From: Herbaspirillum hiltneri N3
GTDB taxonomy: Bacteria; Pseudomonadota; Gammaproteobacteria; Burkholderiales; Burkholderiaceae_D
Length of the DNA: 64,000 nucleotides
Assembly (NCBI RefSeq): GCF_001267925.1
Contig: NZ_CP011409.1
Location: 4,526,001-4,590,000 of the forward strand
Direction of reading: 5' to 3'
Below the pieces are notes generated by a model. The model had not been told where the DNA came from, did no database searches, and was given only the letters and a program-made list of their open reading frames with translations. Below, piece by piece: positions 33,626-59,755 of the stretch (within the stretch, counting starts at the first letter, position 1; each line of letters opens with the position of its first letter). Made by a program: the position numbers and the translations under genes.

Positions 33626-34460
33626 TTACGCCTTGATCGCCGGCTCCGCATTGCGCAAACGGATATGCAGTTCGCGCAGTTGCTTCTCGTCGACCGCCGA
33701 CGGCGCTTGCGTCAACAGATCTTGCGCGCGCTGGGTCTTCGGGAAAGCGATGACGTCGCGGATCGACTCGGCACCGGCCATCATGGTGACCAGACGATCC
33801 AGGCCGAAGGCGATGCCGCCGTGCGGCGGTGCGCCGTATTGCAGCGCATCCAGCAGGAAGCCGAACTTCAGGCGCGCTTCTTCGTCGTTGATCTTGAGCG
33901 CGCGGAACACCTTGCTCTGCACTTCGGCGCGGTGGATACGGACCGAACCACCGCCCATTTCCCAACCGTTCAGCACCAGGTCGTAGGCCTTGGCGATGGC
34001 GGCTGCCGGGTTGGTCGAGATGAAATCTTCGTGACCATCCTTCGGCGAGGTGAACGGGTGATGCAGGGCGACCCAGCGCTGGTTGTCTTCGTCGTATTCG
34101 AACATCGGGAAGTCGACCACCCACAGCGGGCGCCAGACGTCGTCGAACAGGCCGTTCTTCTTGCCGAAATCGCTGTGGCCGATCTTCACGCGCAGCGCGC
34201 CGATGGCGTCGTTGACCACCTTGGTCTTGTCGGCGCCGAAGAAAATCAGGTCGCCGTCTTGCGCGCCGGTCTTCTCGATGATCGCCGCCAGGGCTGCATC
34301 ATGCAGGTTCTTGACGATCGGCGATTGCAGGCCGTCGCGGCCCTTGGCCTTTTCATTGACCTTGATGTACGCCAGGCCCTTGGCGCCGTAGATGGCGACG
34401 AACTGAGTGTAGGCGTCGATTTCCGAACGCGGCATTTCCGCGCCGCCCGGCACGCGCAAG
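33626..34460 (-). CDS. aspS: Aspartyl-tRNA synthetase, C-terminal 277 residues only
   Basis: This is the C-terminal half of aspartyl-tRNA synthetase, which charges tRNA(Asp). Visible motifs are [15 protein letters not shown] and [18 protein letters not shown] of the bacterial insertion domain, class II motif 3 in [20 protein letters not shown], and [20 protein letters not shown]. The family is near 590-600 residues, so the anticodon-binding domain and class II motif 1 are absent. The frame changes abruptly at about 34,460 into an unrelated ABC-transporter gene on the other strand. Since the gene is essential, the break is more likely a join in the sequence than a real truncation. Confidence 0.93.
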
Positions 34461-34739
34461 TCGACCTATGCGTCGGCTGGCTACCAGAAGGCCTCGCCGT
34501 ATGCAGATTTCGTCCTCGACGCTATCCAGAGCGCGGACCCCGACAGTCCCACCCTCAAGCCGGTTCCTTACGTGGGCATCCAGCTTGTGACGATTCCGGA
34601 ATTTACCAGCATCGGCACGGTCACCGGCCAGGCCATCGCGCGCGCGCTGGTGGGCAGGAGCAGTGTGGAAAACGCGTTGAAGTCCGCGCAGACCATCACG
34701 ACGCGTCTGATGCAGCAGGGGCGCTACATCAAATACTGA
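34461..34739 (+). CDS. ABC sugar-type solute-binding protein, C-terminal fragment
   Basis: These 92 codons encode the C-terminal end of a periplasmic extracellular solute-binding protein (family 1 type). The reading frame is open from the join to TGA at 34737-34739 and contains [28 protein letters not shown] and the tail [13 protein letters not shown]. It has no start codon or ribosome binding site, and the missing N-terminal part would be about 320 residues. A strong terminator follows. Sugar or polyol uptake is the usual role of this family; the ligand cannot be inferred. Confidence 0.75.
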
Positions 34740-34760
34740 AGCGCTTGCGGGGGAAAGAAA

Positions 34761-34796
34761 AATGGCAGCCGGAGAAAACTCCGGCTGCCATTTTTT
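34761..34796. terminator. Bidirectional terminator between solute-binding protein and Aer
   Basis: A perfect 14-bp stem (34761-34774 with 34779-34792) has a four-base AAAA loop and is followed by T's (34791-34796) on the plus side. An A-rich run precedes it for the minus side. It separates two convergent genes. Confidence 0.92.
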
Positions 34797-34822
34797 GCTG
34801 CGATCCTGCAGTGCAGGAAGAC

Positions 34823-36385
34823 TTATTTATGCTGGAATTTGAATACCGAAATCGCCTGCAACAGGCGGCCGGTTTGTTCTTCCAGACTGCCTGCGGCAGC
34901 GGCGGCTTGTTCCACCAGAGCGGCATTCTGCTGCGTGCTTTCATCCATGTCGGTGACGGCCTGATGCACTTGCGTGATGCCGGCGCTTTGCTGCTGGGTG
35001 GCGACGGTGATTTCGTTCATGATGCCGGTCACGCGTTTGACCGATTCGACGATCTCGGTCATGGTGCTGCGCGCGTCGTCGACCAGGCGATTGCCGATAT
35101 CGACCTTTTCCACCGAGTCTTCGATCAGCGTCTTGATTTCCTTGGCGGCGCCGGCCGAACGCTGCGCCAGGCTGCGCACTTCGGAAGCCACGACCGCAAA
35201 GCCTCGGCCCTGTTCACCGGCGCGCGCTGCTTCGACGGCGGCGTTCAGCGCCAGGATATTGGTCTGGAAGGCGATGCTGTCGATCAGGCTGATGATGTCG
35301 ACGATCTTCTTCGACGATGCGCTGATTTCGCTCATCGTGGTGCCGGTCTTGGCGACCACGTCGCCGCCTTTGACCGCAATCGACGAGGCCGAGGCCGCCA
35401 GCTGGTTGGCCTGCAATGCGCTGTCGGCATTCTGGCGCACGGTGGCGGCCAGCTGTTCCATGCTGGACGCAGTCTCTTCCAGATTGGATGCCTGCGACTC
35501 GGTGCGGTGCGACAAGTCCATGTTGCCGGTGGCGATCTCGCGCGTAGCGCCGTTGATCGACTCGACGTTGGAGCGCACGTCGCCGATGATCGCGGTCAGG
35601 TTGATGTTCATCTGGCGCAATGCGCGCAACAGCCGGCCGATCTCGTCGTGGCGGTCGGATTCGGCGCGGTTCGACAAGTCGCCGCCGGTGATGGCGTAAG
35701 TAGCCAGCAGCGCCGCCTGGATCGGGCGCACCAGCGCACTGTGCAGCGCGTACCAGATGGTCAGCGTGATCAGCATGGTGGCGATGCAGATGGCGGTGTT
35801 GAGCATGCTGTGATCGGTCAGGAAGCTGACGCTCGCGGCCACCAGCTGCAGCCCCAGCAGCGTGATCATGGACAGGTTGATGCGGGTGTTCAGCTGGATC
35901 TTGCCGAGCTTGGCGATCCAGCCCTTGAAGCCGGTTCTGACGACGTTGCCCTGCTCGATGGCGATGCCCTTGGCCTTGCCCTTGCGCATGTCGGCGTACA
36001 GTTTTTCCGCGCCGGCGACGTCCTGGCGCGACGGCTTGGTACGCACCGACATGTAGCCGATGACCTGGCCTTTTTCGCGTACCGGCGTGATGTTGGCCAG
36101 CACCCAGTAATGATCGCCGCTCTTGCGGCGATTCTTGACCAGGCCGGTCCAGGGGATGCCCTTCTTGACGGTTTTCCACATGTCGGCGAAGGCTTCAGCC
36201 GGCATGTCGGGGTGGCGCACGATGTTTTGCGGTGCGCCCATCAGCTCTTCTTCGTGGAATCCGCTGACTTCGATGAAGTAGGGATTGACGTAGGTAATGT
36301 TGCCCTTCAGATCAGTTTTGGAGACGATCGATTTGCCGTCTTGTAATTCATACTCGGCATTGGTGACCGGCAGGTTCATGCGCAT
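34823..36385 (-). CDS. aer: Aer-like PAS-domain chemoreceptor
   Basis: This encodes a 520-residue aerotaxis-type receptor. The N-terminal PAS domain (about residues 10-120) has [20 protein letters not shown] and [20 protein letters not shown] and would bind FAD to sense redox state. A membrane-spanning hairpin lies at about 170-215, followed by HAMP and the cytoplasmic signalling domain with [19 protein letters not shown]. It has no periplasmic sensor domain, as expected for Aer. It is a single gene between a terminator and a BPSS1780 gene; no che genes are near. Confidence 0.9.
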
Positions 36386-36442
36386 CTTATTTCCCCGTGA
36401 CAGCTGCGTTGTGGTGGTTATTCTTGCTTTTCGGCAAGCACT

Positions 36443-37240
36443 TTACCTTGCGCCGTCGTTGCTCTCTGGAACAGGTGCTTCGTCGCGCGGGGGCTTGCCA
36501 AAGACTGCAGTGTAAGTTGGGTAAAAAGAGCAATACATGACCACGGTCAATATTATCGACAATGGCAGCAAAATAAACACGATCACCGTCATGTTGTTGA
36601 ACAGCAATGCAACAATGGTGCTGATGGTGGCCGGCAGCAGCACGCCGATCACCAGCCACGCCAGGCCGTAGACCGTGAATGCCTTGGCGGCGCGGCGCAC
36701 CGCGAAGAAGCTGTAGAACAGCGCCTTGCCCAGCGGCATCTTGTGCCAGGCGATCAGCGGCGCGGCGAACCAGAACGCCATGGCCGCCGGGATGTATACC
36801 AGCGCGGCCACGATCATGGCCAGACGCAGATTGCTGCCTTCGATGTCCCTGGGGTCCAGGCCGGGGCCGGTCATGGCTTTCCAGAAGGCGCCGCCGTCGA
36901 CCAGCGTCGAGACGGCGACCGCCGCGAAGGCCGCCAGCAGATACAGTACGCCCAGCGCCAGCAGCGTGCGCAGCGCCGGCGAACGGAAGCTCACCAGCAG
37001 CAGGCTTGGATAGACGCGTTTGCCTTCCTCGATCTGGCGGCAGGCTTGCATGAACGACATGGCGAACACCGGCACCAGGATCAGTGGCAGCAGCTGGCCG
37101 ATGATGGGCAAAATGCCCAGTGCCAGCATCAGGAACATGTAGCTCAGGAACAGCGTCGACACTTCCGCGGGTTGCTTGCGGAACAGCGCCAGGCCTTCCT
37201 TGACCCAGAGCCAGCCGGTTTTTGCAGGCAGTTTTTCCAT
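36443..37240 (-). CDS. BPSS1780 family membrane protein
   Basis: This encodes a 265-residue inner-membrane protein with several hydrophobic helices (for example LALGILPIIGQLLPLILVPV near residue 35 and PLSIILTVVMYC near the end). The start is MEKLPAKTGWLWVKEGLALF. Family members of unknown function lie directly after thrB in Burkholderiales. The start codon lies two bases after the thrB stop, so the two are translationally coupled here as well. Confidence 0.82.
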   Translation of the reverse strand: MEKLPAKTGWLWVKEGLALFRKQPAEVSTLFLSYMFLMLALGILPIIGQLLPLILVPVFAMSFMQACRQIEEGKRVYPSLLLVSFRSPALRTLLALGVLYLLAAFAAVAVSTLVDGGAFWKAMTGPGLDPRDIEGSNLRLAMIVAALVYIPAAMAFWFAAPLIAWHKMPLGKALFYSFFAVRRAAKAFTVYGLAWLVIGVLLPATISTIVALLFNNMTVIVFILLPLSIILTVVMYCSFYPTYTAVFGKPPRDEAPVPESNDGAR

Positions 37241-37241
37241 A

Positions 37242-37466
37242 TCAGTTCGGTCCCGGCAGCGGCGGTACGGCGCCGTTCACGCGCAACCGCAGGATGCGTT
37301 CGAAGTGTGTCGGATCGTGCGGCGTCAGCATTTCGGCGGCGCGCGGCAGGTAGAAATCATACAGGCGCGACAGCCAGAAGCGCAGCGCGGCGGCGCGCAG
37401 CATGGCGCTCCAGGCCTGCTGCTCGGCCGCACCGAATGGCCGCACCGCGTGATAGGCGTCCAGCAT
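37242..37466 (-). CDS. thrB: Homoserine kinase, C-terminal fragment
   Basis: These last 70 or so codons match the C-terminus of the ThrB homoserine kinase of the APH-fold type ([46 protein letters not shown]). The family is near 320-330 residues, so most of the enzyme, including the ATP-binding and catalytic segments, is missing. The frame continues without a break into fusA at 37,456-37,466, where the shared word MLDA (ATGCTGGACGC) joins the two. A BPSS1780 gene follows, as in native thrB loci. Confidence 0.85.
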
Positions 37467-38297
37467 GGCTTGCACGCCCTTGTTCTTGAACGCGGTGCCG
37501 CACATCATCGGAACGATTTCGCTGGCGATGGTGCGCTGGCGAATCGCTGCCTTGATTTCTTCTTCGCTCAGGTCGCCGTCTTCCAGGTACTTGTTCATCA
37601 GCTCTTCGGATGCTTCAGCAGCCGCTTCGACCATGTTCTCGCGCCATTTTTGAGCTTCTTCCTTCAGATGCTCAGGAATGTCACGGTAGTCGAACTTCAT
37701 GCCCTGGGAAGCGTCATCCCAGTAGATCGCGCGCATCTTGACCAGATCGATCACGCCTTCGAAGTTGTCTTCGGCGCCGATAGGCACTTGCATAGGAATC
37801 GGGTTGGCCTTCAGGCGTGCACGCATCTGGTCGTACACCTTGAAGAAGTTCGCGCCGGTACGGTCCATCTTGTTGACGAACGCCAGACGTGGAACCTTGT
37901 ACTTGTTCGCTTGACGCCAGACCGTTTCCGACTGTGGCTGAACGCCGCCGACTGCGCAGTAAACCATGCAGGCGCCGTCGAGCACGCGCATCGAACGCTC
38001 AACTTCAATCGTGAAGTCAACGTGGCCCGGGGTGTCGATGATGTTGATGTGGTGAGCCGGGAAGTTGTTCGCCATGCCCTTCCAGAAACAGGTCGTCGCA
38101 GCCGAGGTAATGGTGATACCGCGCTCTTGCTCTTGTTCCATCCAGTCCATGGTGGCGGCGCCATCATGCACTTCACCGATCTTGTGGTTCACGCCCGTGT
38201 AGAACAGAACGCGCTCAGTCGTCGTTGTCTTACCGGCGTCAATGTGAGCGGAAATACCGATGTTGCGGTAGCGCTCAATGGGGGTCTTGCGAGCCAT
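37456..38297 (-). CDS. fusA: Elongation factor G, N-terminal part only
   Basis: This encodes about the first 280 residues of EF-G, the ribosomal translocase GTPase. The GTPase motifs are [19 protein letters not shown] (G1), [10 protein letters not shown] (G2), [18 protein letters not shown] (G3) and [14 protein letters not shown] (G4). The genuine protein is near 700 residues, so domains II-V are missing. After [11 protein letters not shown] the frame becomes homoserine kinase. The context upstream (rpsG, rpsL) is the normal str operon. Confidence 0.95.
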
Positions 38298-38423
38298 GAT
38301 TTATTCCTAAGTCTTTAATGCGCGAAACCGAGCGCCATTTTTGTAAAATAGTCGCTCGGCTCGAACAAATTTAGATACAAGCGAAGTCTTTCCAAAAAAG
38401 CCGGAAAGCCCCGCGCAGTCTTG

Positions 38424-38894
38424 TTAGAAGCGGAAGTGCGAGAACGCCTTGTTCGCTTCAGCCATACGGTGAACTTCGTCACGCTTCTTCATCGCACCGC
38501 CACGGCCTTCAGCCGCTTCGATCAACTCGCCACCCAGACGTTGCGGCATGGACTTTTCGCTACGCTTGTTTGCGGCTTCGCGCAACCAACGCATCGACAA
38601 CGCCATACGACGGACTGGACGCACTTCCACCGGAACCTGGTAGTTGGCGCCGCCGACGCGGCGGGACTTCACTTCGACCAGCGGCTTGCAGTTGTTCAGC
38701 GCAGCGGAGAACACTTCCAGCGGGTCTTTACCGGTTTTGGTTTGGATATGGTCGAACGCACCGTAGATGATGTTTTCAGCGACCGACTTCTTGCCGGACA
38801 GCATCAACACGTTGACGAACTTAGCAACTTCAACATTGCCGAACTTTGGATCAGGCAGGATATCCCGCTTGGGTACTTCACGACGACGTGGCAT
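38424..38894 (-). CDS. rpsG: 30S ribosomal protein S7
   Basis: This encodes a 156-residue S7, which binds the 3' domain of 16S rRNA and starts assembly of the 30S head. [20 protein letters not shown] and [20 protein letters not shown] are standard bacterial sequences, and the length is normal. It lies between rpsL and fusA in the usual str order. In other bacteria S7 represses this operon by binding its mRNA in the rpsL-rpsG gap; here that gap (38,895-39,041) is 147 bases, long enough for such a site. Confidence 0.97.
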
Positions 38895-39041
38895 TTCAAT
38901 TCCTTTCAGTCTTCAGTTGAGCGCGCAGATAAACTCTTGCCGCACTCGCGGACGGCCATCATAGCCACCCACTTACTCGGCCCGTTACGGACCGACACAT
39001 TTCACCAGGCTTGCGCCCGACAAAAAACAAATTACTCGATG

Positions 39042-39425
39042 TTACTTTTTAGCTGCCTTGGCGCGCTTGGCACCGTACTTCGAGCGAGCTTGCTTACGAT
39101 CCTTGACGCCTTGGGTATCCAGAGCACCGCGAACCATGTGGTAACGCACACCCGGCAAATCCTTCACACGGCCGCCGCGCAACAGCACGACGCTATGTTC
39201 TTGCAGGTTGTGGCCTTCACCACCGATGTACGAAATCACTTCGAAGCCGTTGGTCAAACGCACTTTTGCAACCTTACGCAAAGCGGAGTTTGGCTTTTTA
39301 GGAGTCGTTGTGTAAACACGGGTACATACGCCGCGTTTTTGCGGGCTGTTTTCCAGCGCCGGCGATTTGCTTTTCACGGTCGCGGAGACACGTGGGTTGC
39401 GAATCAATTGATTGATGGTTGGCAT
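39042..39425 (-). CDS. rpsL: 30S ribosomal protein S12
   Basis: This encodes a 127-residue S12, part of the decoding centre. The standard [20 protein letters not shown] beginning, [20 protein letters not shown] and [17 protein letters not shown] are present. Both lysines commonly mutated in streptomycin resistance (in PKKPN and in RVKDLPG) are the wild-type residue. It is the first gene of the str operon, with about 300 bases of upstream leader and promoter space. Confidence 0.97.
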
Positions 39426-39636
39426 CGTTTTATATCCAACAAAATTTACGACGTTAATAACATTAATTCCAGAAACGGTTGCCCGGAATTAAACAAGAAA
39501 CTTGCACGGAAGAAACCTGTGCACACCGATTTTAGAGAAAACGAGAGAAGCGCCGAAGAAAGCCGGAAGCAGACCAAAGAACGCTTAAGCTCAGGAGAGC
39601 CCAAATTCGAGAACTCGCGAGTATATGCCTGAAACG

Positions 39637-39672
39637 CAAAAGGGTCAAGGGCAGCTCCCTGCGCCCTGACCC
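39637..39672 (-). terminator. Terminator after the HmuS-like gene (in the rpsL upstream region)
   Basis: A 10-bp stem with one bulged A (39642-39652 with 39663-39672) is followed on the minus strand by a short T-run (A-run 39638-39641). It lies 55 bases after the HmuS-like stop codon. The remainder of the gap 39,426-39,726 holds no gene and must carry the rpsL promoter, which I could not place with confidence. Confidence 0.75.
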
Positions 39673-39726
39673 CCGTGACTGTTTTACGACGTTTTTGCCA
39701 CTTTTTTAATCAAGCGGTGCCAAACC

Positions 39727-40860
39727 TCACGAAGCCTTTGCCAGACTGGCAACAATCTGGCGCCAGGCCGTCGTCTCTTCCTTGTTGCGATCGCGGCGCG
39801 AGAAGAAGTTGACAACCTGCTCACCCTTGGCGTCATAGAACTCCACCGAAGTGATCACGCCGTCCTTGGCCGGACGCTTGACCACCCAGCCGCGATCGAT
39901 GCCGGCCTGGCGCAGATGCAGGTTGAAGTCCGGATCCAGCACGTTGTACCACTCATCGGTCTGCTTCACTTTCTTGATCGTGCCGCTGAAGATCTGCGTC
40001 ATGCCCGGGTTGCTCACGAACACCATGATCGGCTGTCCTTGCCTGGCGGCGCTGTCGAGCAGGGTCTGCACCGACTGCGCACTGATGCGGTAGGCGGCGT
40101 CCTTGCCGATCAGGTCCAGCGCCTGTTCACGCGTGATGCCTAGGTCCTTGAGCAGACGCGGGAATTCATGCACGTCGCTGAGCTCGCTCCAGGTGTCGCG
40201 TAATTCCTTGAGGTCGACTTCGCCGTTCGGCTTTTTGACGACCTTGACCGGCGCCTTGTCGACGCTCAGGTGGGCCACTTGCTCGGCCGCCTTGAAATCG
40301 GCGACCAGCTTGTCAAACGCCGCCACGCCGGCTTCGTTGTCGAGATACACCTTGTTGACCGCGTTGCCATGCACGTCGAAAAATTGCAGGCTGCGGCTGA
40401 TCTTGCCTTCGCGGCCGGGCTGCACCACGGCGAACGCCGAACGCCATTGGTCGGTGCCGAAGCGCAGGTCGATCGGACCGCCGGCGAATCCGGTACCCGG
40501 AATCACGCGGCCGTCTTGGTTGAGCTTTGCCTGGGTGACCGTACCGACACGTTCCAGTACGGCGCTGTCGTTGCGCGTGATGGCCTTGATCTGACCGAGC
40601 TCATGCAAGCGGTCGTACACCGCCTTGTAGGAAGCGCTGCCGTCGCGCAGGCGGGTCGCGCCCTTGCCGACGTTGGTCGCCACCAGTTCGGCTTCCGAGA
40701 CGTTGAGCTTCTGCGCGGCATCGCGCGGCTGCAGCCTGGGCTGCTCCACGCGCAACGCCGACCAGCGTTCGGCCAGGTTGTTGTCAGGCGTGGTCGAACA
40801 CGCTGCGATGCTGATGACGCCTGCAGCCAACAGCAACGCGCCCAGTTTGGTGTATTTCAT
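39727..40860 (-). CDS. hmuS: HmuS/HemS-like heme-binding protein with a lipoprotein signal
   Basis: This encodes a 377-residue protein of the HemS/HmuS/ChuS family, two tandem repeats that hold heme between them. Family stretches include RDAAQKLNVSEAELVATNVG, LGQIKAITRNDSAVLERVG, LSDVHEFPRLLKDLGITREQ (with the likely heme-ligand His) and VFVSNPGMTQIFSGTIKKVK. Unusually, the N-terminus is a lipoprotein signal: ALLLAAGVISIAACSTT, with lipobox IAAC, Cys21 and Ser at +2, which predicts outer-membrane anchoring. Family members are normally cytoplasmic. It follows the heme receptor gene by 42 bases. No HmuTUV-type ABC importer is adjacent. Confidence 0.85.
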   Translation of the reverse strand: MKYTKLGALLLAAGVISIAACSTTPDNNLAERWSALRVEQPRLQPRDAAQKLNVSEAELVATNVGKGATRLRDGSASYKAVYDRLHELGQIKAITRNDSAVLERVGTVTQAKLNQDGRVIPGTGFAGGPIDLRFGTDQWRSAFAVVQPGREGKISRSLQFFDVHGNAVNKVYLDNEAGVAAFDKLVADFKAAEQVAHLSVDKAPVKVVKKPNGEVDLKELRDTWSELSDVHEFPRLLKDLGITREQALDLIGKDAAYRISAQSVQTLLDSAARQGQPIMVFVSNPGMTQIFSGTIKKVKQTDEWYNVLDPDFNLHLRQAGIDRGWVVKRPAKDGVITSVEFYDAKGEQVVNFFSRRDRNKEETTAWRQIVASLAKAS

Positions 40861-40902
40861 TGAAGGCCTCTTTTCGGTTAAGTGGTTTCGGTTGACGGAT
40901 GA

Positions 40903-43155
40903 TCAGTATTCGAACTTCATGCTGACGTTGAAGCTGCGACCCGGCTCGGTGTACGCGTCCTTGTTGGTGGCGCTGTCGGCCAGCGACAGGCCGCGTATAT
41001 CGGTCCAGTTCCAGTACTTGCGATCGAACAGGTTGCGAATGCCGGCGTAGAGCACGGCGTTCTTGCTGAAGCGATAGCCTGAGCTCAGGTCCATGACGAA
41101 GAACGACGGCGAGACGAAGTTGGTCGGCGTCGCGATGTCTTCCTTCTTCTTGGACGCGTTGTAGATCACATCGCTTTGCACGAACCAGACCTGCGTCGGC
41201 TCGTAGCGCACGCCGGCAACCACCGACAGCGGCGCCACCGATTCCAGTCCGGTTTTCTTGCCGGTCCGGTCGGTTGTCGTGCCCTTGGTATAGGCGAAAC
41301 CGGTCTTCAGCGACAGGCCGCGTTCCATGCGCCAGTCGAGACGCCCTTCGAAGCCGTGGATTGATGCCTTGGCCGCGTTCACGTACTGGAAGATGGTCGG
41401 GTTGAGCACGGTGCCGGCGCCGGCGACGGACACCGAGTCGATGAAGTTGCGATACTCGCCGGCATAAGCGGCCGTGCTGTAGCTGAACAGGCCGGCCGAT
41501 GTCGGCAGCTTGCCGCGGAAGCCGATCTCATAGGAATTGCTGGTCTCCGGCTTGAGATTCGGGTTGGCGATTTGCGAGTACCCTTGCGACGCATTGTTGA
41601 AGTAGGAATTGACCTCGTGCGGCGACGGCGAACGGAAGCCGCGTGCGTACTGGATGTAGGGTGCAAACGCCGGTGCGACTTCGTAGATGAAAGCGAGGCG
41701 CGGCGAGAATGCGCTGTCCTTGCTGGTCGACGCCGGCTGGCGGTTTGCGATGGCTTGCGCATCGTACTTGGCGCTGGCCTCCGGCTTGATCTTGTAGGAA
41801 TCGTAACGCAGGCCCGGCACGATACTCAGCGCGCCGATGCGCATGTCGTCCTGCAGATAGGCGCCGAATACGCTGTACTCGGTTTTCGGGAAGTACTCGC
41901 AGTATTGCGTGCCGGTGCAGGTGGTCCAGCCGGTGCCCGACGCCGCCATCTGCAACTTCGCCACGCTGAGGTCGACGCCGTAGGTCAGCTTGTGCTTGAT
42001 GATACCGGTGTTGAAGCCGCTTTCGGCCAGCACGCCGCCGCCGAAAATGTCGTCCTGATAGCTGATGTCACGGAAACGCGGACGGGTCGGCGCAGCGCCG
42101 TTTTCAAAGGAGTACTGGCTGGTCTTCGAATCGCGGTAGTAGAGATTGGCGCGCAGCTTCTGGAACACCGGATTGTCCGTGTCGTCATGCTCGTATTGCA
42201 GCTGCAGCTTGTTGCTCTTGACGTCGCTGGCGCTTTGATAGCCCGTGATCGTCGGCGCCGCCACGGCGGAGAGGCTGTCGCCGCGCAACTTGTTTTCCAC
42301 CGTTTCGAAACTCAGCTTGAAGACGTTGCGTGGATCGATCTTGAACACCAGCTTGCCCAGCGCCGAGCGATTGTTGTAGGTCAGCGGATCGGCTTTGGTG
42401 CGCGCCGCGCCGGTGCCGCCGACGCTGCCATTGGTTTCGGTCTCGTTGCCATGGCGCGCATTCAGCACCAGCATGCCTTGCACGTGATCATTGCCGAAGG
42501 CCATGGTGCCGGTCGCACCATAGCTGCTGTCGCTGGAATCGTAGGAAGGACGCAGCGCAAAGTAGCTGCTCTTGCCAAATACGTTCAGCAGATCTTGCGG
42601 ATCCTTGGTGACGAAGTTGACCACGCCTGTCAGGCCGTCACTTCCGTACATCGATGACGCCGGACCGCGCAGGATTTCGATGCGCTGGTACAGATCGGTG
42701 TCGGTGTAGGCGCCACGGCCGGCGCTCAACGTGCCCTGGCTGAACGCGCGCGGCAAGGCCACGCCGTCTTCCAGCAACATGACGCGATTGCCTTCCAAGC
42801 CGCGAATGTTGATGCCTTCGTTGCCGCCGCGCCCCATGGTGGCTGACGCGCCGGTCACGCCGCCGACGCGATAGACCGAGCGGCGCACTTCCACACCTGG
42901 CTCATAGCGCAGGGCATCCTTGATGTCCTTGGCGTTTTGCTGTTCGAGTTCTTCGGCGGTGATCACCGAGACGGTGGCGGCAACCCGGTTCAGGTCGCTG
43001 TCGACGCCGCGCGTGGCGGTGACGGTGATTTCATCGAGCGGGCGATTCAGCGCCGCCAGTTGCTGCGTAGTTTGCTGCGCAGTCGCAGGTGTCATTGCCC
43101 ATTGTTGCAGCACGACGGCCGTCGCAAGGACGAGTTTTTTCTTGCATAGCTTCAT
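40903..43155 (-). CDS. hmuR: TonB-dependent heme/hemoglobin receptor
   Basis: This encodes a 750-residue outer-membrane receptor of the TonB-dependent hemoglobin/transferrin family. A signal peptide precedes a TonB-box-like segment (LDEITVTATRG), the plug (KDIKDALRYEPGVEVRRSVY, RIEILRGPASSMYGSDGLTG) and the 22-strand barrel. The heme-receptor motifs are present as FRSPSPHEV (a variant of FRAP) and ANPNLKPE (NPNL). I chose the ATG at 43153-43155, spaced 9 bases after AGGGGA, over the ATG three codons upstream. A Fur-box promoter lies about 200 bases upstream. The HmuS-like lipoprotein gene follows in the same operon. Confidence 0.9.
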   Translation of the reverse strand: MKLCKKKLVLATAVVLQQWAMTPATAQQTTQQLAALNRPLDEITVTATRGVDSDLNRVAATVSVITAEELEQQNAKDIKDALRYEPGVEVRRSVYRVGGVTGASATMGRGGNEGINIRGLEGNRVMLLEDGVALPRAFSQGTLSAGRGAYTDTDLYQRIEILRGPASSMYGSDGLTGVVNFVTKDPQDLLNVFGKSSYFALRPSYDSSDSSYGATGTMAFGNDHVQGMLVLNARHGNETETNGSVGGTGAARTKADPLTYNNRSALGKLVFKIDPRNVFKLSFETVENKLRGDSLSAVAAPTITGYQSASDVKSNKLQLQYEHDDTDNPVFQKLRANLYYRDSKTSQYSFENGAAPTRPRFRDISYQDDIFGGGVLAESGFNTGIIKHKLTYGVDLSVAKLQMAASGTGWTTCTGTQYCEYFPKTEYSVFGAYLQDDMRIGALSIVPGLRYDSYKIKPEASAKYDAQAIANRQPASTSKDSAFSPRLAFIYEVAPAFAPYIQYARGFRSPSPHEVNSYFNNASQGYSQIANPNLKPETSNSYEIGFRGKLPTSAGLFSYSTAAYAGEYRNFIDSVSVAGAGTVLNPTIFQYVNAAKASIHGFEGRLDWRMERGLSLKTGFAYTKGTTTDRTGKKTGLESVAPLSVVAGVRYEPTQVWFVQSDVIYNASKKKEDIATPTNFVSPSFFVMDLSSGYRFSKNAVLYAGIRNLFDRKYWNWTDIRGLSLADSATNKDAYTEPGRSFNVSMKFEY

Positions 43156-43355
43156 GGTAACCATTCCCCTGAGTGAGTTCGGTTACTGGCATGCTGCTAG
43201 CTGGCTACCTGGATGTGAATACGAGAGTTTTGCCTGCCTCGCGGCTGCGCTGCGACATGCTGGTCGCGCGGAGTCATTTTGTTTTATTGCGCGGCGTCTG
43301 TTCCGATGAAACCGGATGGCGTTGTCGCCGAGCGTTCCCGAGGCTGATTATTTTT

Positions 43356-43374
43356 AATAAGAATAATTCTTATT
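43356..43374. promoter_or_regulatory. Fur box
   Basis: A 19-bp near-perfect palindrome (AATAAGAATAATTCTTATT) matches the Fur consensus GATAATGATAATCATTATC at 13 of 19 positions. It covers the expected transcription start just after the -10 element of the receptor promoter, so iron-loaded Fur would block transcription. Confidence 0.85.
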
Positions 43375-43379
43375 CAGGA

Positions 43380-43408
43380 ATTGTAGGACAAAACTTCAAT
43401 CCGCTCAA
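43380..43408 (-). promoter_or_regulatory. Sigma-70 promoter of the heme receptor operon
   Basis: On the minus strand a -35 element TTGAGC (43403-43408) and a -10 element TACAAT (43380-43385) are separated by exactly 17 bases. The Fur box starts 5 bases downstream. The rest of the 43,156-43,564 gap is a gene-free leader of about 200 bases and the rpoC terminator. Confidence 0.7.
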
Positions 43409-43479
43409 GATGATTCGTCAACATTTACGTTTCACTATCCGGCGGCGACACGAAGCCTGCTGCAATGCGTCCGCCCATG

Positions 43480-43564: not shown

Positions 43565-47803
<4,239 letters not shown>

Positions 47804-51000: not shown

Positions 51001-52198
51001 GGTCTTCGCTGTAGAACAGGCCGTTGAACAGGGCTTCCACCGAGTCTTCGGTCGGCGGTTCGCCAGGACGCATCATGCGATAGATCGCCACGCGCGCAGC
51101 GGTCTGATCCGCTGTGTCGTCGGTACGCAGGGTTTGCGAGATGTAGCCGCCCTGATCCAGGTCGTTGGTGTACAGCGTCTGGACTGCATCGATGTTGGCT
51201 TCGCGCAGGCGGGCCAGCAATTCTTCAGTCAGTTCGTCGTTGGCCGAAGCGATGACTTCGCCGGTGTCGCCGTCGACGATGTTCTTCGCCAGGACGCGAC
51301 CCAGCAGGTAGTCTTCCGGCACGGAGATCTGCTTGATGCCTGCAGCTTCGATGTCGCGCACGTGCTTGGCGTTGATGCGCTTGTCCTTCGCGACCAGCGG
51401 CTTGCCGGCCTTGTCGAGGATGTCGAAACGCGCTACTTCGCCGCGCAGGCGCTCGGACACGAATTCCATCTCGGCGCCTTCAGCGCGCAGGGTGAAATTG
51501 TCGAACACGAAGAAGTTCGCCAGGATCTGCTCGGACGTCATGCCGATGGCCTTGAGCAGGATCGTTACCGGCATCTTGCGACGACGGTCGACGCGGAAGA
51601 ACAGGATGTCCTTCGGATCGAATTCGAAGTCGAGCCACGAACCGCGGTAAGGAATGATGCGTGCGGAGAACAACAGCTTGCCGGACGAATGCGTCTTGCC
51701 GCGGTCATGTTCGAAGAACACGCCCGGCGAACGGTGCAGCTGCGACACGATGACGCGTTCGGTGCCGTTGATGACGAACGAACCGGTGGTCGTCATGAGC
51801 GGCAATTCGCCCATGTAGACTTCCTGTTCCTTCATTTCCTTGATGACCGGCTTGGTCGGCGATTCCTTGTCCAGGATCACCAGACGCACTTTGGCACGCA
51901 GCGGCGACGCGAAGGTCAGGCCACGTTGTTGGCATTCCTTGACGTCGAACGGCGGCGCGCCCAACACATAGGACAGAAACTCGAGACGCGCAAAACCATT
52001 GTGCGAAACGATAGGGAAAATCGATGTAAAGGCCGATTGCAGACCTTCGTTCTTGCGTTGGGACGTTGTTTTGTCCGTCTGCAAGAATGTCTGGTATGAC
52101 TCGATCTGAGTCGCTAGCAGGAACGGAACGTTGTGGACGTTAGCGCGTTTCGCAAAGGATTTACGAATACGCTTCTTCTCAGTAAATGAGTAGTGCAT
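48092..52198 (-). CDS. rpoB: DNA-directed RNA polymerase subunit beta
   Basis: This encodes the 1368-residue beta subunit. I chose the ATG at 52196-52198 ([15 protein letters not shown]), spaced 5 bases after GGAG, rather than the in-frame GTG two codons upstream. The rifampicin pocket ([20 protein letters not shown], then [11 protein letters not shown]) has the wild-type residues at the usual resistance positions. The C-terminal part contains the conserved [15 protein letters not shown] and [20 protein letters not shown]. Confidence 0.98.
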
Positions 52199-52533
52199 GG
52201 ACACTCCGTGAGTGACAGGAAGGATAGAGAGTTCAGGACTCGCCCGGATTGCTTGTCGCCTTGTTGCTGCAATCCGTTAGCAGCGAAACCTCAAGTCTCA
52301 GCCCTTCAGTCTTGGTTGGCGCCTTCTCTTGCTTCGCCGGCGAAGCTGGCAAGAAACTGCTGACCATTAACGAACTTGAATTCGACGCAAATTCGAATCG
52401 GACTCAAATTCACATACAAAATTACGAAACGACAAAGGAGCCAAAGCCGAATCCTTCTTTCAAAGGATTCTGCACTTTGACTCCGGTGGAACGATGCGCC
52501 GGCGAACCGGCGATATTCCAGCTCAAGTAAAAA
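52199..52533 (-). promoter_or_regulatory. rplL-rpoB leader with three hairpins
   Basis: This 335-base gap has no gene. Reading the minus strand after rplL there is first a perfect 6-bp stem with a UUCG loop (52497-52502 with 52507-52512), then AATCCTT/AAGGATT (52050-range offset: 52450-52456 with 52463-52469), and then the palindrome GCTTCGCCGGCGAAGC (52331-52346). None ends in a T-run. The position matches the attenuator and RNase III processing region known between rplL and rpoB in enterobacteria, so a similar role is inferred. Confidence 0.5.
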
Positions 52534-52911
52534 TTACTTGAGTTCAGCTTTCGCGCCAGCTTCTTCCAGCTTCTTCTTGGCTGCTTCGGCGTCTGCCTTG
52601 GCGATGCCTTCTTTAACTGGCTTCGGTGCGCCGTCAACCAGATCCTTGGCTTCTTTCAAGCCCAGACCGGTGATTTCGCGAACTGCCTTAATGACGCCAA
52701 CCTTGTTCGCGCCGACTTCGGCCAGAACAACGGTGAACTCTGTTTGCTCTTCAGCAGCAGCGGCGCCAGCGCCACCACCGGCAGGACCGGCAACAGCCAT
52801 TGCTGCTGCGGAAACGCCGAACTTCTCTTCGAATGCCTTCACCAGGTCATTCAATTCCAACACGGTCAAGGCGCCTACGGCTTCCAAGATATCGTCTTTG
52901 CTAATTGCCAT
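52534..52911 (-). CDS. rplL: 50S ribosomal protein L7/L12
   Basis: This encodes a 125-residue L7/L12 stalk protein that recruits translation factors. The N-terminal dimerisation part ([20 protein letters not shown]), the Ala/Gly-rich hinge ([13 protein letters not shown]) and the C-terminal factor-binding domain ([20 protein letters not shown]) are all present. The ribosome binding site AGGAG is clear. The TAA stop sits in a short palindrome (CTCAAGTAA...TTACTTGAG). It follows rplJ by 99 bases in the usual order. Confidence 0.97.
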
Positions 52912-53010
52912 TTGAAACTCCTAATTTATTTCGGTAATAACATCTAATCGGTACTGACGCAGAGGTCAAAGCGCTCATGAACAACCGCCACATTGCTGCG
53001 GCCGGCGTTC

Positions 53011-53508
53011 TTAAGCTGCTTCGGCTTCTTTCTTGGCTGCCAGAGCAGCCAGACCACGCGCAAAACCAGCGACCGGAACCTGCATCATGCCCAGCAATTG
53101 GGCCAGCAGAACTTCGCGGGACGGGATATTTGCCAATGCAGTCACAGCAGCCTTATCCAGCGGCTTGCCTGCATAGTTACCTGCCTTGACAACCAGCTTG
53201 TCGTTGGTCTTAGCAAAGTCGGAGATGACTTTAGCTGCAGCAACGGCATCTTCCGAGATCGAATAGATCAGCGGGCCGGTCATTTCAGAAGCGAGGTCAG
53301 CAAACGCGGAACCTTCAACGGCACGACGCGCGAGTGTGTTTTTCAACACGCGCAGGTACACGCCTTGGTCACGCGCTTTGGCGCGCAGTTGCGTCAAGTG
53401 ACCAACCTGGATGCCACGGTATTCGGCCACGACGATAGTCTGCGCAGCTGCTACTTTTGCGGCGACTTCGGCGACAACGGCCTTTTTGTCATTCAGATTG
53501 AGACTCAA
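53011..53508 (-). CDS. rplJ: 50S ribosomal protein L10
   Basis: This encodes a 165-residue L10 that anchors the L7/L12 stalk to 23S rRNA. The sequence begins [20 protein letters not shown] and includes [20 protein letters not shown] and [21 protein letters not shown] chose the TTG at 53506-53508 as start: GGAGG lies 7 bases before it and the protein begins as L10 should. The upstream in-frame ATG at 53541 would add 11 non-conserved residues and has no such site. Confidence 0.95.
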
Positions 53509-53833
53509 GATCAACCTCCAAAAATGATGCTTGGCGACCACACAGGCGAAAAACCTGCTTGCCTTACATCGGTTCGAACACGGCGTCCGACGTTAGGAGT
53601 TCATTGCAACGTTTCGTGAACCGTGAAACGCTGTGTGAGACTGCAAAACTTGTTCGGGGTCACCATCTGCGCTGGGTAATCGGAAACGGGAGCTTCCGAC
53701 GTTTTAACTTTGTGCCTGCCTGCTGCACGCCGCCCAACGGTCTTTGATTGCCTGAAGCACTTCACAATTGCAAAATGCTCCAGCCCAAAGATGCGCCCCG
53801 TCTCCGCAAGGAAACGAGGACTTGATTCTTTAC
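53509..53833 (-). promoter_or_regulatory. rplJ leader (probable L10 autoregulatory RNA)
   Basis: About 325 bases separate rplA from rplJ. In many bacteria this leader folds into an L10(L7/L12)4-binding RNA that represses rplJL translation. The stretch has several short complementary words, including CAGG/CCTG around TTTTTCG (53,546-53,560 region) near the 3' end, but I could not verify the full fold. There is no gene here. Confidence 0.45.
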
Positions 53834-54450
53834 TTAAGCCGACAGGGTCGATTGGTCCACGCGGACGCCAGCGCCCATAGTGGACGACAGCGACACCTTG
53901 CGCAGGTAAACACCCTTGCTGGTGGCTGGCTTTGCCTTGTTCAGCGCGTCGATCAGTGCAACCAGATTCGACTTCAGATCTGCGTCGCTGAACGACTTGC
54001 GACCGATGGTGGCGTGAATGATGCCGGCCTTGTCGGTACGGTATTGCACTTGACCAGCCTTGGCGTTCTTGACGGCGGTGGCGACGTCAGGAGTCACGGT
54101 GCCGACCTTCGGGTTAGGCATCAGGCCACGTGGGCCCAGGATCTGACCCAGGGTACCGACGATACGCATGGTGTCCGGCGAAGCGATCACGATGTCGAAA
54201 GGCATGTTGCCGGCCTTGACTTGCTCAGCCAGATCTTCCATACCGACGACGTCTGCGCCGGCCGCCTTGGCTTGCTCGGCCTTTTCGCCCGAAGCGAACA
54301 CGGCGACGCGAACGGTCTTGCCTGTACCAGCCGGCAGAACGACGGAACCGCGGACGACCTGGTCCGACTTCTTCGCGTCAACGCCCAGTTGGACGGACAC
54401 GTCGATCGATTCGTTGAACTTTGCTGTTGCGAATTCCTTGACCAGCGCCA
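53834..54450 (-). CDS. rplA: 50S ribosomal protein L1, lacking the N-terminus
   Basis: About 200 residues of L1 are present, out of about 231. Motifs such as [40 protein letters not shown] and the end [16 protein letters not shown] are clear. The first 30 or so residues are replaced, in the same frame, by the beginning of an ABC permease at about 54,431-54,450, where the bases of LVKEFA fit both genes. rplJ follows as normal, but the rplK gene expected upstream is not there. L1 is important for growth, so a join in the sequence is the likely explanation. Confidence 0.95.
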
Positions 54451-54652
54451 GCGCGATGTTGGACGGCGCCGGCATGATGTAGATCGGAATCTCGAAGAAG
54501 CGGATGATCGCCTCCCACACCGCCACGACGGCGACGAACACGGTCGGGATCAGCAGCAGTTCGGGCCGCGCCCTGAGCGTGCGGCGCAGGCTGAAAGAGG
54601 TGGACGCCGGGGTGACGTTCGGCGCGGCCGGATTGTTGTGGACGCTTTCCAT
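54431..54652 (-). CDS. ABC transporter permease, N-terminal fragment (SsuC/TauC type)
   Basis: The first 70 or so residues of an ABC importer permease are present: a cytoplasmic start ([17 protein letters not shown]), one membrane helix ([21 protein letters not shown]) and the typical [14 protein letters not shown] segment. The family is about 250-290 residues, so most is missing beyond the join into rplA. The start codon overlaps the stop of the ATPase gene, showing a tight operon. It would import a sulfonate, nitrate or other small organic anion. Confidence 0.8.
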
Positions 54653-55500
54653 CAGATGAATCCCTGTGTATTGAACTGGCTGCGGATGCGTTTGCTGTAC
54701 ACGCCGAAAGCGTCGGTCGACATGATGTCGAGGCTGCGTTCGGCCGGCAGGTCTACCGTCACCAGGTCGGCGATGCGGCCGGGACGATTGGACAGCACCA
54801 TCACGTGGGTGCCGAGGAAAATCGCTTCAGGAATCGAGTGCGTCACGAAGATGACCGTCTTGCCGGCCTTGCGCCAGATACGCAGCAACTCGAGGTTCAT
54901 CACCTCGCGCGTCATGGCGTCGAGTGCGCCGAACGGCTCATCCATCATCAGGATCGACGGATCGTGGATCAGGGAACGTGCGATGGCGACGCGTTGCTGC
55001 ATGCCGCCCGACAATTCATTCGGATAGCGATTGGCGAAATCGGCCAGGCCGACCATGTCCAGCAGCTCCTGCGCGCGCACGCGGCTGGTGGCCATGTCAA
55101 GGCCGAGCACCCGCGCCGGCAGCAGGACATTTTCGATGGCGGTTTTCCATGGCAGCAACACCGGACTCTGGAACACCATGCCGATATCGCGATGCGGTTC
55201 ACGCACTTCTTCGCCGTTGACCCTGATCGACCCGGCCGAGCGCGGGATCAGGCCCGACAGCAACTTGAGCAGGGTCGACTTGCCGCAGCCCGACGGGCCG
55301 ACGATGGTCATGAAGCCGCCTTGCGGCACCGTCACCGAAATCGGGCCGAGCGCCTGCACCTTGCCGCCGTCGTGGGTGGCGTAGGTTTTTTCCAGGGCAT
55401 CGACGACGATGGCCGCGGGCCGGCTCGCGGCGGTGGCGCCGGCGGCGTTTTCCGTTTCCTGGCTGAATGACGTGTCTCGCACGATCGACATAACTGACAT
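54652..55500 (-). CDS. ABC transporter ATP-binding protein (nitrate/sulfonate/taurine type)
   Basis: This encodes a 282-residue ATPase. Walker A is [16 protein letters not shown], the signature is [15 protein letters not shown], and Walker B is [20 protein letters not shown] chose the ATG at 55498-55500 because AGGAG lies 8 bases before it; the in-frame ATG at 55536 adds 12 residues. It follows the LeuD-like gene by 64 bases and overlaps the permease gene. The ligand is probably the substrate of the dehydratase/lyase enzymes of the same operon, which is inference. The expected binding-protein gene is not present in this block. Confidence 0.9.
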
Positions 55501-55564
55501 CCGGTTGACTCCTGAATGGCAAGCATCATAGAGCAAATAAGAACGGCCTCGGATAAATCCCGCC

Positions 55565-56074
55565 CTAAGAAGTCAATTGCGACTTCACGAATTCGAGACC
55601 GCCGCCGGCGTTGACGATATCTTGCAGGAACGGCGCCAGCGGCTCCACCTGCATCTGCTTGCCGCTGGTCGCGTTGAAGATCGCGCCGCGGCTGAAATCG
55701 ATGTCGAGCTGATCGCCGTCGTCGATGGCGTCGAGCACGTCGCTGCCCGCCATCAGCACCGGCACGCCCATGAAGATCGCCAGCCGGAACGGCCCGCGCG
55801 ACAGCGAACGCGCCAGCAGGCCGACGCCCAGCGCCTTCATCGCCAGGAAGGGATGGCTGTGGTTGCTACCGTGGGCGAAATTGCGGCCGGCCACGATGAC
55901 GTCGCCGGGCTGCGCCTGTTGCGCGAACTCGGGCCGCACTTCGGCCAGCAAATGATGGCGCAACATGCGCGGATCGAACTCGAACACGTGACGCGCCGAA
56001 ATCAACTGATCGCTGGAGATGTCGCCGGAAAATTTCCAGGCGCGCCCGCTGCTGGTTTTGCCGGCGGCGCTCAT
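55565..56074 (-). CDS. Aconitase-type dehydratase small subunit, LeuD-like
   Basis: This encodes a 169-residue swivelling domain of the 3-isopropylmalate dehydratase small-subunit type. Motifs are the start region GRAWKFSGDISSDQLISARH and the loop VAGRNFAHGSNHSHPFLAMK, which contacts substrate. Its start overlaps the stop of the LeuC-like gene by four bases, as in LeuCD pairs. Not part of a leucine operon (no leuA or leuB), so a catabolic relative such as a 2,3-dimethylmalate or homoaconitate-type dehydratase is likely. Confidence 0.87.
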   Translation of the reverse strand: MSAAGKTSSGRAWKFSGDISSDQLISARHVFEFDPRMLRHHLLAEVRPEFAQQAQPGDVIVAGRNFAHGSNHSHPFLAMKALGVGLLARSLSRGPFRLAIFMGVPVLMAGSDVLDAIDDGDQLDIDFSRGAIFNATSGKQMQVEPLAPFLQDIVNAGGGLEFVKSQLTS

Positions 56075-57345
56075 GCCGCCCCTCCTTCGGCATAAGCACG
56101 CGGATCGGTGATGTGGCCGGTGATCGCGGACGCCGCCACCGTCATGGCGCTGGCAAGGAAAATTTCCGCCTCGTTGCTGCCCATGCGGCCCGGGTCGTTG
56201 CGGGTGCTGGTGCTGATGCGGCGTTCGCCGGCCGTCAATTGCGCGATGCCGCCGAAACAAGGGCCGCAGGTCGACGGCGAAATGGTCGCGCCGGCGGCGG
56301 TGAGCTCGGTCAGCAATCCCTCTTGCAAGGCCTGCTGGAAAACCTGCTGCGTGGCCGGGATCACCAGCAGATTCACTTCCGCATGCACCTTGCGGCCGCG
56401 CAGGATGGCGGCGGCGGAACGGATGTCTTCGATCGAACCGGACACGCACGATCCGATGTACGCATGCTGGATGACGACATCGGACATCGCCTGCGCTTCG
56501 CGCACGTGGTTGGGCGACGGCGGGATCGACACGCGCGGCGTCAGCGTCGACAGGTCGAGGTCGATGGTCATTGCGTACCCGGCGTCGGCGTCGCTGTTGA
56601 TCGACTGCGGCGCCTGCAGATCGGCAACGCCATGCGCGCGCAGGTAATCGATGCAGCGCTGATCGACGGCGGCGATGCCTGACTTGGCGCCGGCGTCGAC
56701 GCACAGGCCGCAGATCGTCATGCGCTCCGGCACCGACAGCGTCGACAGGCCCGCGCCCTGGTATTCGATGACGCGATAGCTGGTCGCTTCGTCGTCAAGC
56801 TGCTGCATGGTCGCCAGCACGATGTCGCGCGCCGCCACGCCGGGGCGGCAGGCGCCGTGCAGCCGCACGCGAATGGTCTCGGGCACCTTCATCCAGATCT
56901 GGCCGGTGGCCAGCACCATGGACACTTCAAAACCGAACGGCACCGACAAGGCGCCGACTGCGCCCAGTCCCGGCGCGTGGCTGTCGGCGCCGGCGGCGAA
57001 CATGCCCGGCGCCACCAGGCCCTGCTCCACCATGAGCGGATGCGTGATGCCGACGCCGTCGAAGAAATGCCCGACCGACCATTCCTGCGCCAACTGGCGC
57101 GTGAGCTTGTTGCGCTCGGCGCCGGCGATGCTGTGCACCGGCACTTCGTGGTCGATGATGACGGCGACGCGTTCGGGATGCGCCAGCCTGGTCACGCCGA
57201 TTTCGCGGATGCGTTTGATGTATGCGGAAAACGACACCTCCGGCGCCGTCACCAGGTCCGGACTTGCCCAGATGATCTCGCCGTGCTGCACGCTTTCGCG
57301 GCCGCTGGTGCGCGCAAGGATTTTCTGCGTCATGGTTGCGCCCAT
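56071..57345 (-). CDS. Aconitase-type dehydratase large subunit, LeuC-like
   Basis: This encodes a 424-residue 4Fe-4S dehydratase subunit. The substrate-side motif is GMFAAGADSHAPGLGAVGAL. Cluster cysteines are expected in IGSCVSGSIEDIRSA (at about residue 300) and in PSTCGPCFGGIAQLTAGERR (two Cys at about 363-366). Start: ATG at 57343-57345, 9 bases after GGGGAG; the lyase stop codon lies inside this ribosome binding region. The pair with the LeuD-like subunit, and the lyase gene ahead of it, suggest catabolism of a branched hydroxy-acid. Confidence 0.87.
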   Translation of the reverse strand: MGATMTQKILARTSGRESVQHGEIIWASPDLVTAPEVSFSAYIKRIREIGVTRLAHPERVAVIIDHEVPVHSIAGAERNKLTRQLAQEWSVGHFFDGVGITHPLMVEQGLVAPGMFAAGADSHAPGLGAVGALSVPFGFEVSMVLATGQIWMKVPETIRVRLHGACRPGVAARDIVLATMQQLDDEATSYRVIEYQGAGLSTLSVPERMTICGLCVDAGAKSGIAAVDQRCIDYLRAHGVADLQAPQSINSDADAGYAMTIDLDLSTLTPRVSIPPSPNHVREAQAMSDVVIQHAYIGSCVSGSIEDIRSAAAILRGRKVHAEVNLLVIPATQQVFQQALQEGLLTELTAAGATISPSTCGPCFGGIAQLTAGERRISTSTRNDPGRMGSNEAEIFLASAMTVAASAITGHITDPRAYAEGGAA

Positions 57346-57350
57346 TGCCG

Positions 57351-58020
57351 CTAACTCCCCTCGTTCACTTGTGTCGCCAGCTCTGCGTCGAAGGCGGCGG
57401 CGCGTTCCACGCCGACCAGTCGGCCGACGTCGGCAAACTGCGCCATGCCGTCCACCAGTTGTACGGTGTCGCCGCTGGCGAACATGCTGCGCAACATGTC
57501 TTGCTGCGCCTTGAAGGTGGTCTGGATCAGCGACAGCGGATACAGCGACATGGCGAAGCCGGCTGCCGCAAGCTGTTGGCGCGTGTAATTGGGACGGACG
57601 GTTTCGGCGGCGACGTAGATCACCGGGATCCGGACGCTCGACGCCACCGCTTCCAGCTCGGCGGTCGTACTGAGCGAAGGCGCCATGACGGCATCGGCGC
57701 CGGCGCGCTCCATCGCCTGCGCGCGCACGATGACTTCGTCAAGGCCGTAGATGGTCATGGCGTCGGTGCGGCCGATGATGACGAATTCGCTGCTCTTGCG
57801 ACCTGCCCGCGCAGCTTTCAGGCGCAAGGCCATTTCTTCAGCCGGCACAAGTTTCTTGCCGGCCATGGCGCCGCATTTCTTGGGCATGATCTGGTCTTCC
57901 AGATGCAGGCCGGCGATGCCGGCCTTTTCGAAGGCGCGCACGGTTTCTGCGATGTTGGCGGCGCCGCCGTAGCCGGTGTCGGCGTCAACCAGTACGGGAA
58001 AGGAGACCGCTTCGGCGATG
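57351..58020 (-). CDS. PEP mutase/isocitrate lyase family enzyme, lacking the N-terminus
   Basis: About 222 residues of a 290-residue family (2-methylisocitrate lyase, 2,3-dimethylmalate lyase, oxaloacetate decarboxylase) are present. The metal-binding [19 protein letters not shown] and the active-site stretch [20 protein letters not shown] are seen; Cys of the KKCG motif is kept but the following His of many lyases is Ala. The N-terminal 70 or so residues are missing because the frame is cut at about 58,018 and continues as the antisense of an RND gene. It is the first gene of a dehydratase/ABC operon. Confidence 0.87.
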
Positions 58021-59755
58021 CGCCCGCCTGCTGCACCACGTGCCGGAAGAGAAGCAGGGCTGGTTCTATCACAAGAGCGGCGCGTTCTTCGACCACGTCG
58101 TCGCACGCTACGGCGTCGCGCTGGAATGGGTGCTCGATCGCCAGCGCGCCACGCTGGCGGTGGCGCTGGGCACGCTGGCGCTGACCGTGGTGCTGTACAT
58201 CTTCATCCCCAAGGGTTTCTTCCCGGTGCAGGATACCGGCGTGATCCAGGGCATTTCGGAAGCCACGCAATCGGTCTCCTTCGGCGCCATGGCCGAGCGT
58301 CAGCAAGCGCTGGCCAAGGTGGTGCTGGAAGACCCGGCGGTGGAAAGCCTGTCGTCCTTCATCGGCGTCGACGGCATCAACGCCACCCTGAACAGCGGCC
58401 GCATGCTGATCAACCTGAAGCCGCACGAATCGCGTGATGGGGGAGAGAGAATCAGCGCCAGCGACATCATCCGCCGCCTGCAACCGAGGCTCGCCGAAAA
58501 AGTCCCCGGCATCACGCTCTACATGCAACCGGTGCAAGACCTGACCATCGAAGACAGCGTCAGCCGCACGCAATACCAGTTCACGCTGGAAGACGCCGAT
58601 CCCGCCGAACTCAGCACCTGGGTGCCGAAGATCGTCGAACGCCTGCGCCAATTGCCGGAACTGGCCGACGTTGCCAGCAACGTCCAGGACCAGGGTTTGC
58701 AGGCCTACGTCGAGATCGACCGCGATGCCGCCTCGCGCATGGGCATCACCACGGCCGCCATCGACAATGCGCTGTACAACGCCTTCGGCCAGCGCCTGAT
58801 CTCGACCATCTATACGCAATCGAATCAATACCGGGTGGTGATGGAGGTCAAGCCGGAATTCCAGAAGGGACCGGACGCGCTCAACAGCATTTTCCTGGTG
58901 GCCTCCAACGGCAACCAGATCCCGCTGGCCAGCATTGCCAAGGTGACCGAGCGCACCGCGCCGCTGGTGGTCAACCATCTCGGCCAGTTCCCGGCGGCCA
59001 CCGTCTCGTTCAACCTCGCGCAGGGCGCCTCGCTGGGTGAAGCGGTCAAGGCCATCATGGCGGCCGAGAAAGAGATCGCCATGCCGGCCAGCATCTCGAC
59101 CAACTTCCAGGGCGCAGCGCTGGCGTTCCAGGCGTCGCTGTCGAATACGCTGTGGCTGATCTTGGCGGCGATCGTGACGATGTACATCGTGCTCGGCGTG
59201 CTGTACGAAAGCTACATCCATCCGATCACCATCCTGTCGACCTTGCCGTCGGCCGGTGTGGGCGCCTTGCTGTCGCTGATGATTTCGCGCAACGACCTCG
59301 GCATCATCGGCATCATCGGCATCATCCTGCTGATCGGCATCGTCAAGAAGAACGCCATCATGATGATCGACTTCGCGCTCGAGGCTGAGCGGCACGAAGG
59401 CAAGTCGCCGCGCGAGGCGATCTACCAGGCCTGCCTGCTGCGCTTCCGTCCCATCCTGATGACCACCATGGCGGCCTTGCTGGGCGCCTTGCCGTTGATG
59501 CTGGGTACGGGCGTGGGCTCCGAGCTGCGCCAGCCGCTCGGCATTACCATGGTCGGCGGCCTGCTGGTGTCGCAGGTGCTGACGCTGTTCACCACGCCGG
59601 TAATCTACCTCGGTTTCGACAGCCTGGCCCGACGCCTGCGCAAGCGTTTCGGCAAGGAAGAGCATTCGGACGACGACGATGCACCTTCGGCCAACGCGCC
59701 GCTGCTGCCGCCGGCGCAGCCCTCGCCGCCGCAGCCTTCACCACCACACGCCTGA
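58016..59755 (+). CDS. mdtB: RND efflux permease, C-terminal half (MdtB-like)
   Basis: About 579 residues of an RND multidrug permease of about 1040 remain. The frame is open from the join ([14 protein letters not shown]), with no genuine start. Visible are [18 protein letters not shown], the second porter domain and the last membrane helices ([38 protein letters not shown]). The C-terminus is an unusual acidic and Pro-rich tail ([20 protein letters not shown]). The N-terminal half, with the catalytic proton-relay Asp pair of helix 4, is missing. It is followed 12 bases later by a complete MdtC-like permease. Confidence 0.92.

Follow-up and report, generated by a model that had tools for sequence, protein, structure and literature searches.

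The stretch of DNA analysed here (the window) comprises 64,000 nucleotides, positions 4526001 to 4590000 of the one-contig chromosome of Herbaspirillum hiltneri N3 (4,965,474 bp). Within 24 kb of it, truncated genes abut one another at several places, which raises the question of whether this gene order belongs to the living bacterium or was created while its genome was assembled. The original prediction described the whole window as a mosaic of at least five blocks separated by four joins of the same style, and attributed these either to a systematic cause in the assembly or to an extensively rearranged strain. Based on comparisons within the N3 genome and with its relatives, the tract from 34.4 to 58.0 kb of the window is most probably (a probability of about 0.96) an assembly artefact made of duplicated filler, in a chromosome that has been published as complete.

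Blocks, joins and source copies

The window (queried as positions 25001 to 45000 and 45001 to 64000) was compared with its own genome by BLAST, and the block edges were determined by base-by-base extension. Unique flanks were found up to position 34466 on the left and from about position 58019 on the right, with three duplicated blocks between them (Table 1). The four joins thus separate five blocks, A to E, all within 24 kb as anticipated, and the open reading frames and domain matches show genes cut on both sides of every join. Each of the three inner blocks (B, C and D) occurs a second time elsewhere in the N3 genome, and such identity within one assembly is what a misjoin or duplicated filler should leave. 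The claim that the whole window is a mosaic holds for the tract at 34.4 to 58.0 kb but not for the regions at 8.1 to 34.47 kb and 58.02 to 64 kb, which are collinear with a relative (BLAST chains, gaps of up to 8 kb tolerated). For window positions 1 to 8105, no equivalent was seen in those parts of G005, a single-contig relative, that were fetched; this part could be strain-specific DNA or hide an intergenic join.

Table 1. Blocks, joins and chimeric reading frames of the tract (window positions).
Feature	Position	Strand	Remarks
Block A end: aspS C-terminal half	33626..34466	-	model positions 322-582 of 586
Join A/B	34440..34466		up to 27 bp common, one likely mismatch; aspS side judged from relatives
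Block B, 3,038 bp	34440..37477	+	100% copy of genome 238889-241926 (+)
Chimeric in-frame fusA-thrB ORF	37242..38297	-	arises from join B/C
Join B/C	37457..37477		21 bp exact common word
Block C, 16,999 bp	37457..54455	+	100% copy of genome 4788042-4805040 (+)
Chimeric rplA ORF	53834..54652	-	foreign N-terminal residues from block D
Join C/D	54438..54455		18 bp exact common word
Block D	54438..58023	-	exact copy of genome 343480-339895 (-)
Join D/E	58019..58041		~20 bp imperfect overlap, one-base indel; mdtB side judged from relatives
Block E start: mdtB C-terminal half	58040..59755	+	MdtB/MuxB model positions 505-1038 of 1040

Block B contains the end of a solute-binding protein gene, genes for an MCP and a BPSS1780-family protein, and the C-terminal end of thrB; in its source copy the genes are unbroken open reading frames with domain matches. 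Block C carries the N-terminus of fusA, rpsG, rpsL, genes for a HutX-like protein and a TonB-dependent haem receptor, rpoC, rpoB, rplL, rplJ and most of rplA. Block D holds part of an ABC permease gene, an ABC ATPase gene, genes for LeuD-like and LeuC-like dehydratase subunits, and part of a 292-aa ORF. The HutX-like and haem receptor genes are located between rpsL and rpoC (window 39042 to 43565), and the arrangement at the source is common to Herbaspirillum sp. 3R11 and H. lusitanum P6-12.

Join A/B cuts aspS and, on its B side, the solute-binding protein gene, while join B/C cuts thrB and fusA. Join C/D interrupts rplA, whose first 23 or so residues are gone, together with the ABC permease gene, and join D/E interrupts the 292-aa ORF and mdtB. 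At join B/C the N-terminal 273-280 aa of fusA are fused in frame to the C-terminal end of thrB, giving a chimera of 351 aa that exists only because of the join; fusA itself is whole (701 aa) at the source copy of block C. Three of the cut genes had been regarded as essential, which stands for aspS and fusA but not for rplA, as the latter is dispensable in Escherichia coli.

The suggested synteny dot-plot was run in part, in the form of BLAST chains between 809,474 bases of N3 and 540,000 bases of G005. The source copies of blocks C and D proved collinear with this relative across their edges, including the source rplA region, whereas the window copies did not. In Herbaspirillum sp. 3R11 and H. 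lusitanum P6-12, too, the corresponding sequence keeps to source C beyond the B/C edge, at which the window copy ends. The N3 genome has two copies of rpoB encoding identical proteins. Among 12 relatives of the same genus, rpoB was found in one place in ten (including G006, which also shows an additional row for a 46-residue fragment), gave no match in two (G002 and G004) and was found in two places in none. The caution that gene-neighbourhood arguments across the joins are unsafe was well placed.

It is scarcely credible that a mobile element or prophage brought the blocks in. The genes named in the three blocks have housekeeping, chemotaxis, transport and metabolic functions, and the copies match N3's own loci. 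No recombinase, transposase or integrase was recognized in the tract among 17 ORFs compared with NCBIfam (three without a match) and six compared with Pfam (four without a match).

The short common words expected at the joins were found at all four, being exact at B/C and C/D, where they were read directly in both source copies, and imperfect at the two outer joins. Since the relevant aspS and mdtB sequence was not found in the N3 genome, the overlaps at A/B and D/E were judged from relatives, with the row of relative G021 at aspS left out of the comparison. The match of block D is exact to window position 58023, beyond which it extends, across a one-base indel, to about 58041. That joins B/C and C/D are seated on exact words of 21 and 18 bases is beyond chance expectation; in 1.56 Mb of the N3 genome, repeated 18-mers account for 0.57% of positions and repeated 21-mers for 0.30%. 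Repeated 20-base words, gene families included, occur at one site per approximately 2.5 kb of the 1.56 Mb examined, so that wrong pieces can be linked by any step for which an overlap of about 20 bases suffices. A strict k-mer path was considered and rejected, as join D/E is imperfect and join A/B probably so; an error-tolerant aligner would fit better. The exact A/B join gave 0 matches in a set of genome contigs that may omit N3 or near genomes, and no weight was given to this result.

Short common words at joins are a mark of template switching too. A real ectopic composite could thus be envisaged, in which template switching joined three copied pieces, including a second rpoB-rpoC, between aspS and mdtB, the intact aspS having been lost from the assembly. 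The words at the joins and the identity of the copies, which would make them recent, are both consistent with such an event. It is nevertheless very unlikely, given that the sole aspS is halved, that conserved sequence of 2.9 kb and 4 kb is missing exactly at the outer joins, and that the published assembly method offers a simpler cause.

Sequence missing at the outer joins

In a whole-genome profile search of N3, in which all six candidates were scored, the sole aspS found was the C-terminal half listed in Table 1, and two other matches to the aspS model belong to the lysine--tRNA ligase (lysS) gene. By comparison, aspS is whole in all 13 relatives, each having one match above the model cut-off that runs from model position 2 or 3 to 582. 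DNA from the N-terminal side of aspS of a relative had no match in the N3 genome among the best 40 of 110 candidates. A cell whose only aspartyl-tRNA synthetase is half an enzyme should not be able to live. A viable rearrangement would keep every essential gene whole somewhere, and aspS is whole nowhere in this assembly. The reading of an extensively rearranged strain fails for this reason, as its cells would be left without aspartyl-tRNA synthetase.

On the left flank, the relatives match N3 up to genome position 4560466 in all ten that were fetched and in G005. In nine of the ten, and in G005, a stretch of about 2.9 kb follows, after which the match resumes at N3 3689744-3689761 and proceeds backwards. 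The exception is G009, where the same two regions are adjacent and the match resumes only at N3 3685955. A GT20 (otsA-like) gene is cut at N3 3689761. This GT20 region lies approximately 3 kb from the C-terminal half of aspS in most relatives examined. Among the matches listed, the 2.9-kb stretch of G005 had weaker matches to other genes but no N3 counterpart.

On the right flank, all ten fetched relatives and G005 match from N3 4584019, followed by 4.0-4.3 kb and then by N3 3748317-3748329. The N-terminal half of mdtB was not found in the N3 genome among the matches listed with the G005 sequence as query. Likewise, the approximately 4-kb stretch of G005 on the mdtB side had no N3 counterpart among the matches listed, and its weaker matches were mainly to RND pump genes. 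For the missing 2.9 and 4 kb, the whole-genome search used the sequence of G005 as its only query. A cut gene was also considered at N3 3748317 and rejected, as the response regulator located there has both of its domains complete.

Both outer joins interrupt an order that is conserved in the relatives, and both therefore replace conserved sequence. Such loss, about 2.9 kb on one side and about 4 kb on the other, is what a misjoin or duplicated filler would be expected to cause. If, as we infer, the neighbours seen in the relatives are also the true neighbours in N3, the ends of blocks A and E would each belong next to other sequence.

A natural rearrangement at the species level, in which the order truly differs and the genes were cut in the course of evolution, is very unlikely. 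The gene order of N3 does differ from that of G005 elsewhere, for example after N3 4599418. An old event of this kind, however, is difficult to reconcile with exact copies of three regions and the loss of half of the sole aspS. As joins at chance matches of about 20 bases halve an essential gene, an assembly mistake is almost certain.

Other duplicates and large-scale order

A self-comparison by megablast (at least 95% identity over at least 120 bases) covered 1,595,474 bp, with pairs visible only if both copies lie within that third of the chromosome. Eight pairs were detected, namely B, C and D and five others; within that scope, the scarcity of further duplicates speaks against the artefact reading. 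Three of the latter are minor, being a tuf pair, a 291-bp pair at 95% identity and a local tandem pair of 140 bp. A 3,477-bp inverted pair at 99.9% identity links 4235223-4238697 with 4272929-4269454. The first of these copies has a diguanylate cyclase without its GGDEF domain and a truncated MFS transporter, and the second holds complete versions of the two; this inverted duplicate is probably an error of the same kind as the tract. rRNA was considered as its cause and rejected after a scan at Rfam gathering thresholds returned no match. The exact 616-bp repeat at 4191810-4192425 and 4205665-4206280 holds one whole ORF of 187 aa and looks unlike a join of the mosaic kind. It belongs to a 25-kb region whose G+C content is low (0.51).

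A second mosaic of duplicates was looked for at 3.69 Mb, and no near-identical copy was found for the 10.5 kb from N3 3689500 among the best 40 of 400 candidates. The neighbours in the relatives also hinted at a simple inversion of 812 kb (3.748 to 4.56 Mb). We do not claim such an inversion, as the GC skew of 3748328-4560466 (-0.021) is like that of its flanks (-0.021 and -0.018).

Proposed origin and implications

The H. hiltneri N3 chromosome was deposited as CP011409 with a length of 4,965,474 bp (PMC4626616). According to its announcement, SOLiD fragment and mate-pair reads were combined with MiSeq reads and several assemblers were used; the SOLiD reads were partly assembled, and integration by Phrap gave 5,970 contigs and 283 scaffolds (PMC4626616). 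H. seropedicae SmR1 and H. lusitanum P6-12 served as targets for aligning the contigs, and FGAP was used for gap closure (PMC4626616). According to the GFinisher paper, the N3 contigs were ordered on a reference of more than 800 H. lusitanum contigs, themselves mapped on SmR1 (PMC5056350). FGAP uses BLAST to align the ends of contigs with those of alternative assemblies, the best of which it inserts into the gap (PMC4091766). In the literature searched, CP011409 is named nowhere beyond its announcement (PMC4626616), and the available parts of PMC5056350 and PMC13273997 report no error in the N3 chromosome.

A procedure with short reads, multiple assemblers, ordering on a reference and FGAP could plausibly make joins of this type, although the default thresholds of FGAP may demand more than a 20-bp match. 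In the proposed course of events, two contig ends (in aspS and mdtB) with other true neighbours would have been bridged by 23.6 kb of filler, to which the regions at 0.239 Mb, 4.79 Mb and 0.34 Mb each contributed one copied piece. The pieces would have been chained at some 18-27 common bases, with an indel at one of the four joins. The source copies were left in place, so that the pieces now appear twice. The real sequence lost would amount to about 2.9 kb, from the N-terminal half of aspS to the middle of otsA, and about 4 kb, from the N-terminal half of mdtB onward. The SOLiD contigs, merging by Phrap and FGAP are the candidate steps behind the joins. Of the two causes originally put forward, the systematic assembly cause is supported by the exact extra copies, the missing half of aspS, the conserved sequence lost at the outer joins and an assembly method that could plausibly create such joins.

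Misassembly with duplicated filler is a known kind of error in gap-closed short-read genomes. The N3 tract resembles it in that sequence used twice bridges contig ends, genes are cut, conserved sequence is lost and the overlaps are short chance matches. It differs from the usual case in that the filler comes from three loci, reaches 23.6 kb and stands in a chromosome published as complete. Copies joined at short common words are also reminiscent of rearrangements by microhomology-mediated template switching, but unlike those the N3 genome keeps only half of an essential gene, which a living cell should not tolerate.

We claim no new biology for the tract between 34.4 and 58.0 kb of the window. 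Gene callers could report the fusA-thrB fusion ORF as a real protein, and the false second rpoB-rpoC, the fusion and the missing halves of aspS and mdtB could enter studies of gene content, copy number and synteny. As the chromosome is published as complete and stands as the genome of its species in the set searched, these false features could spread.
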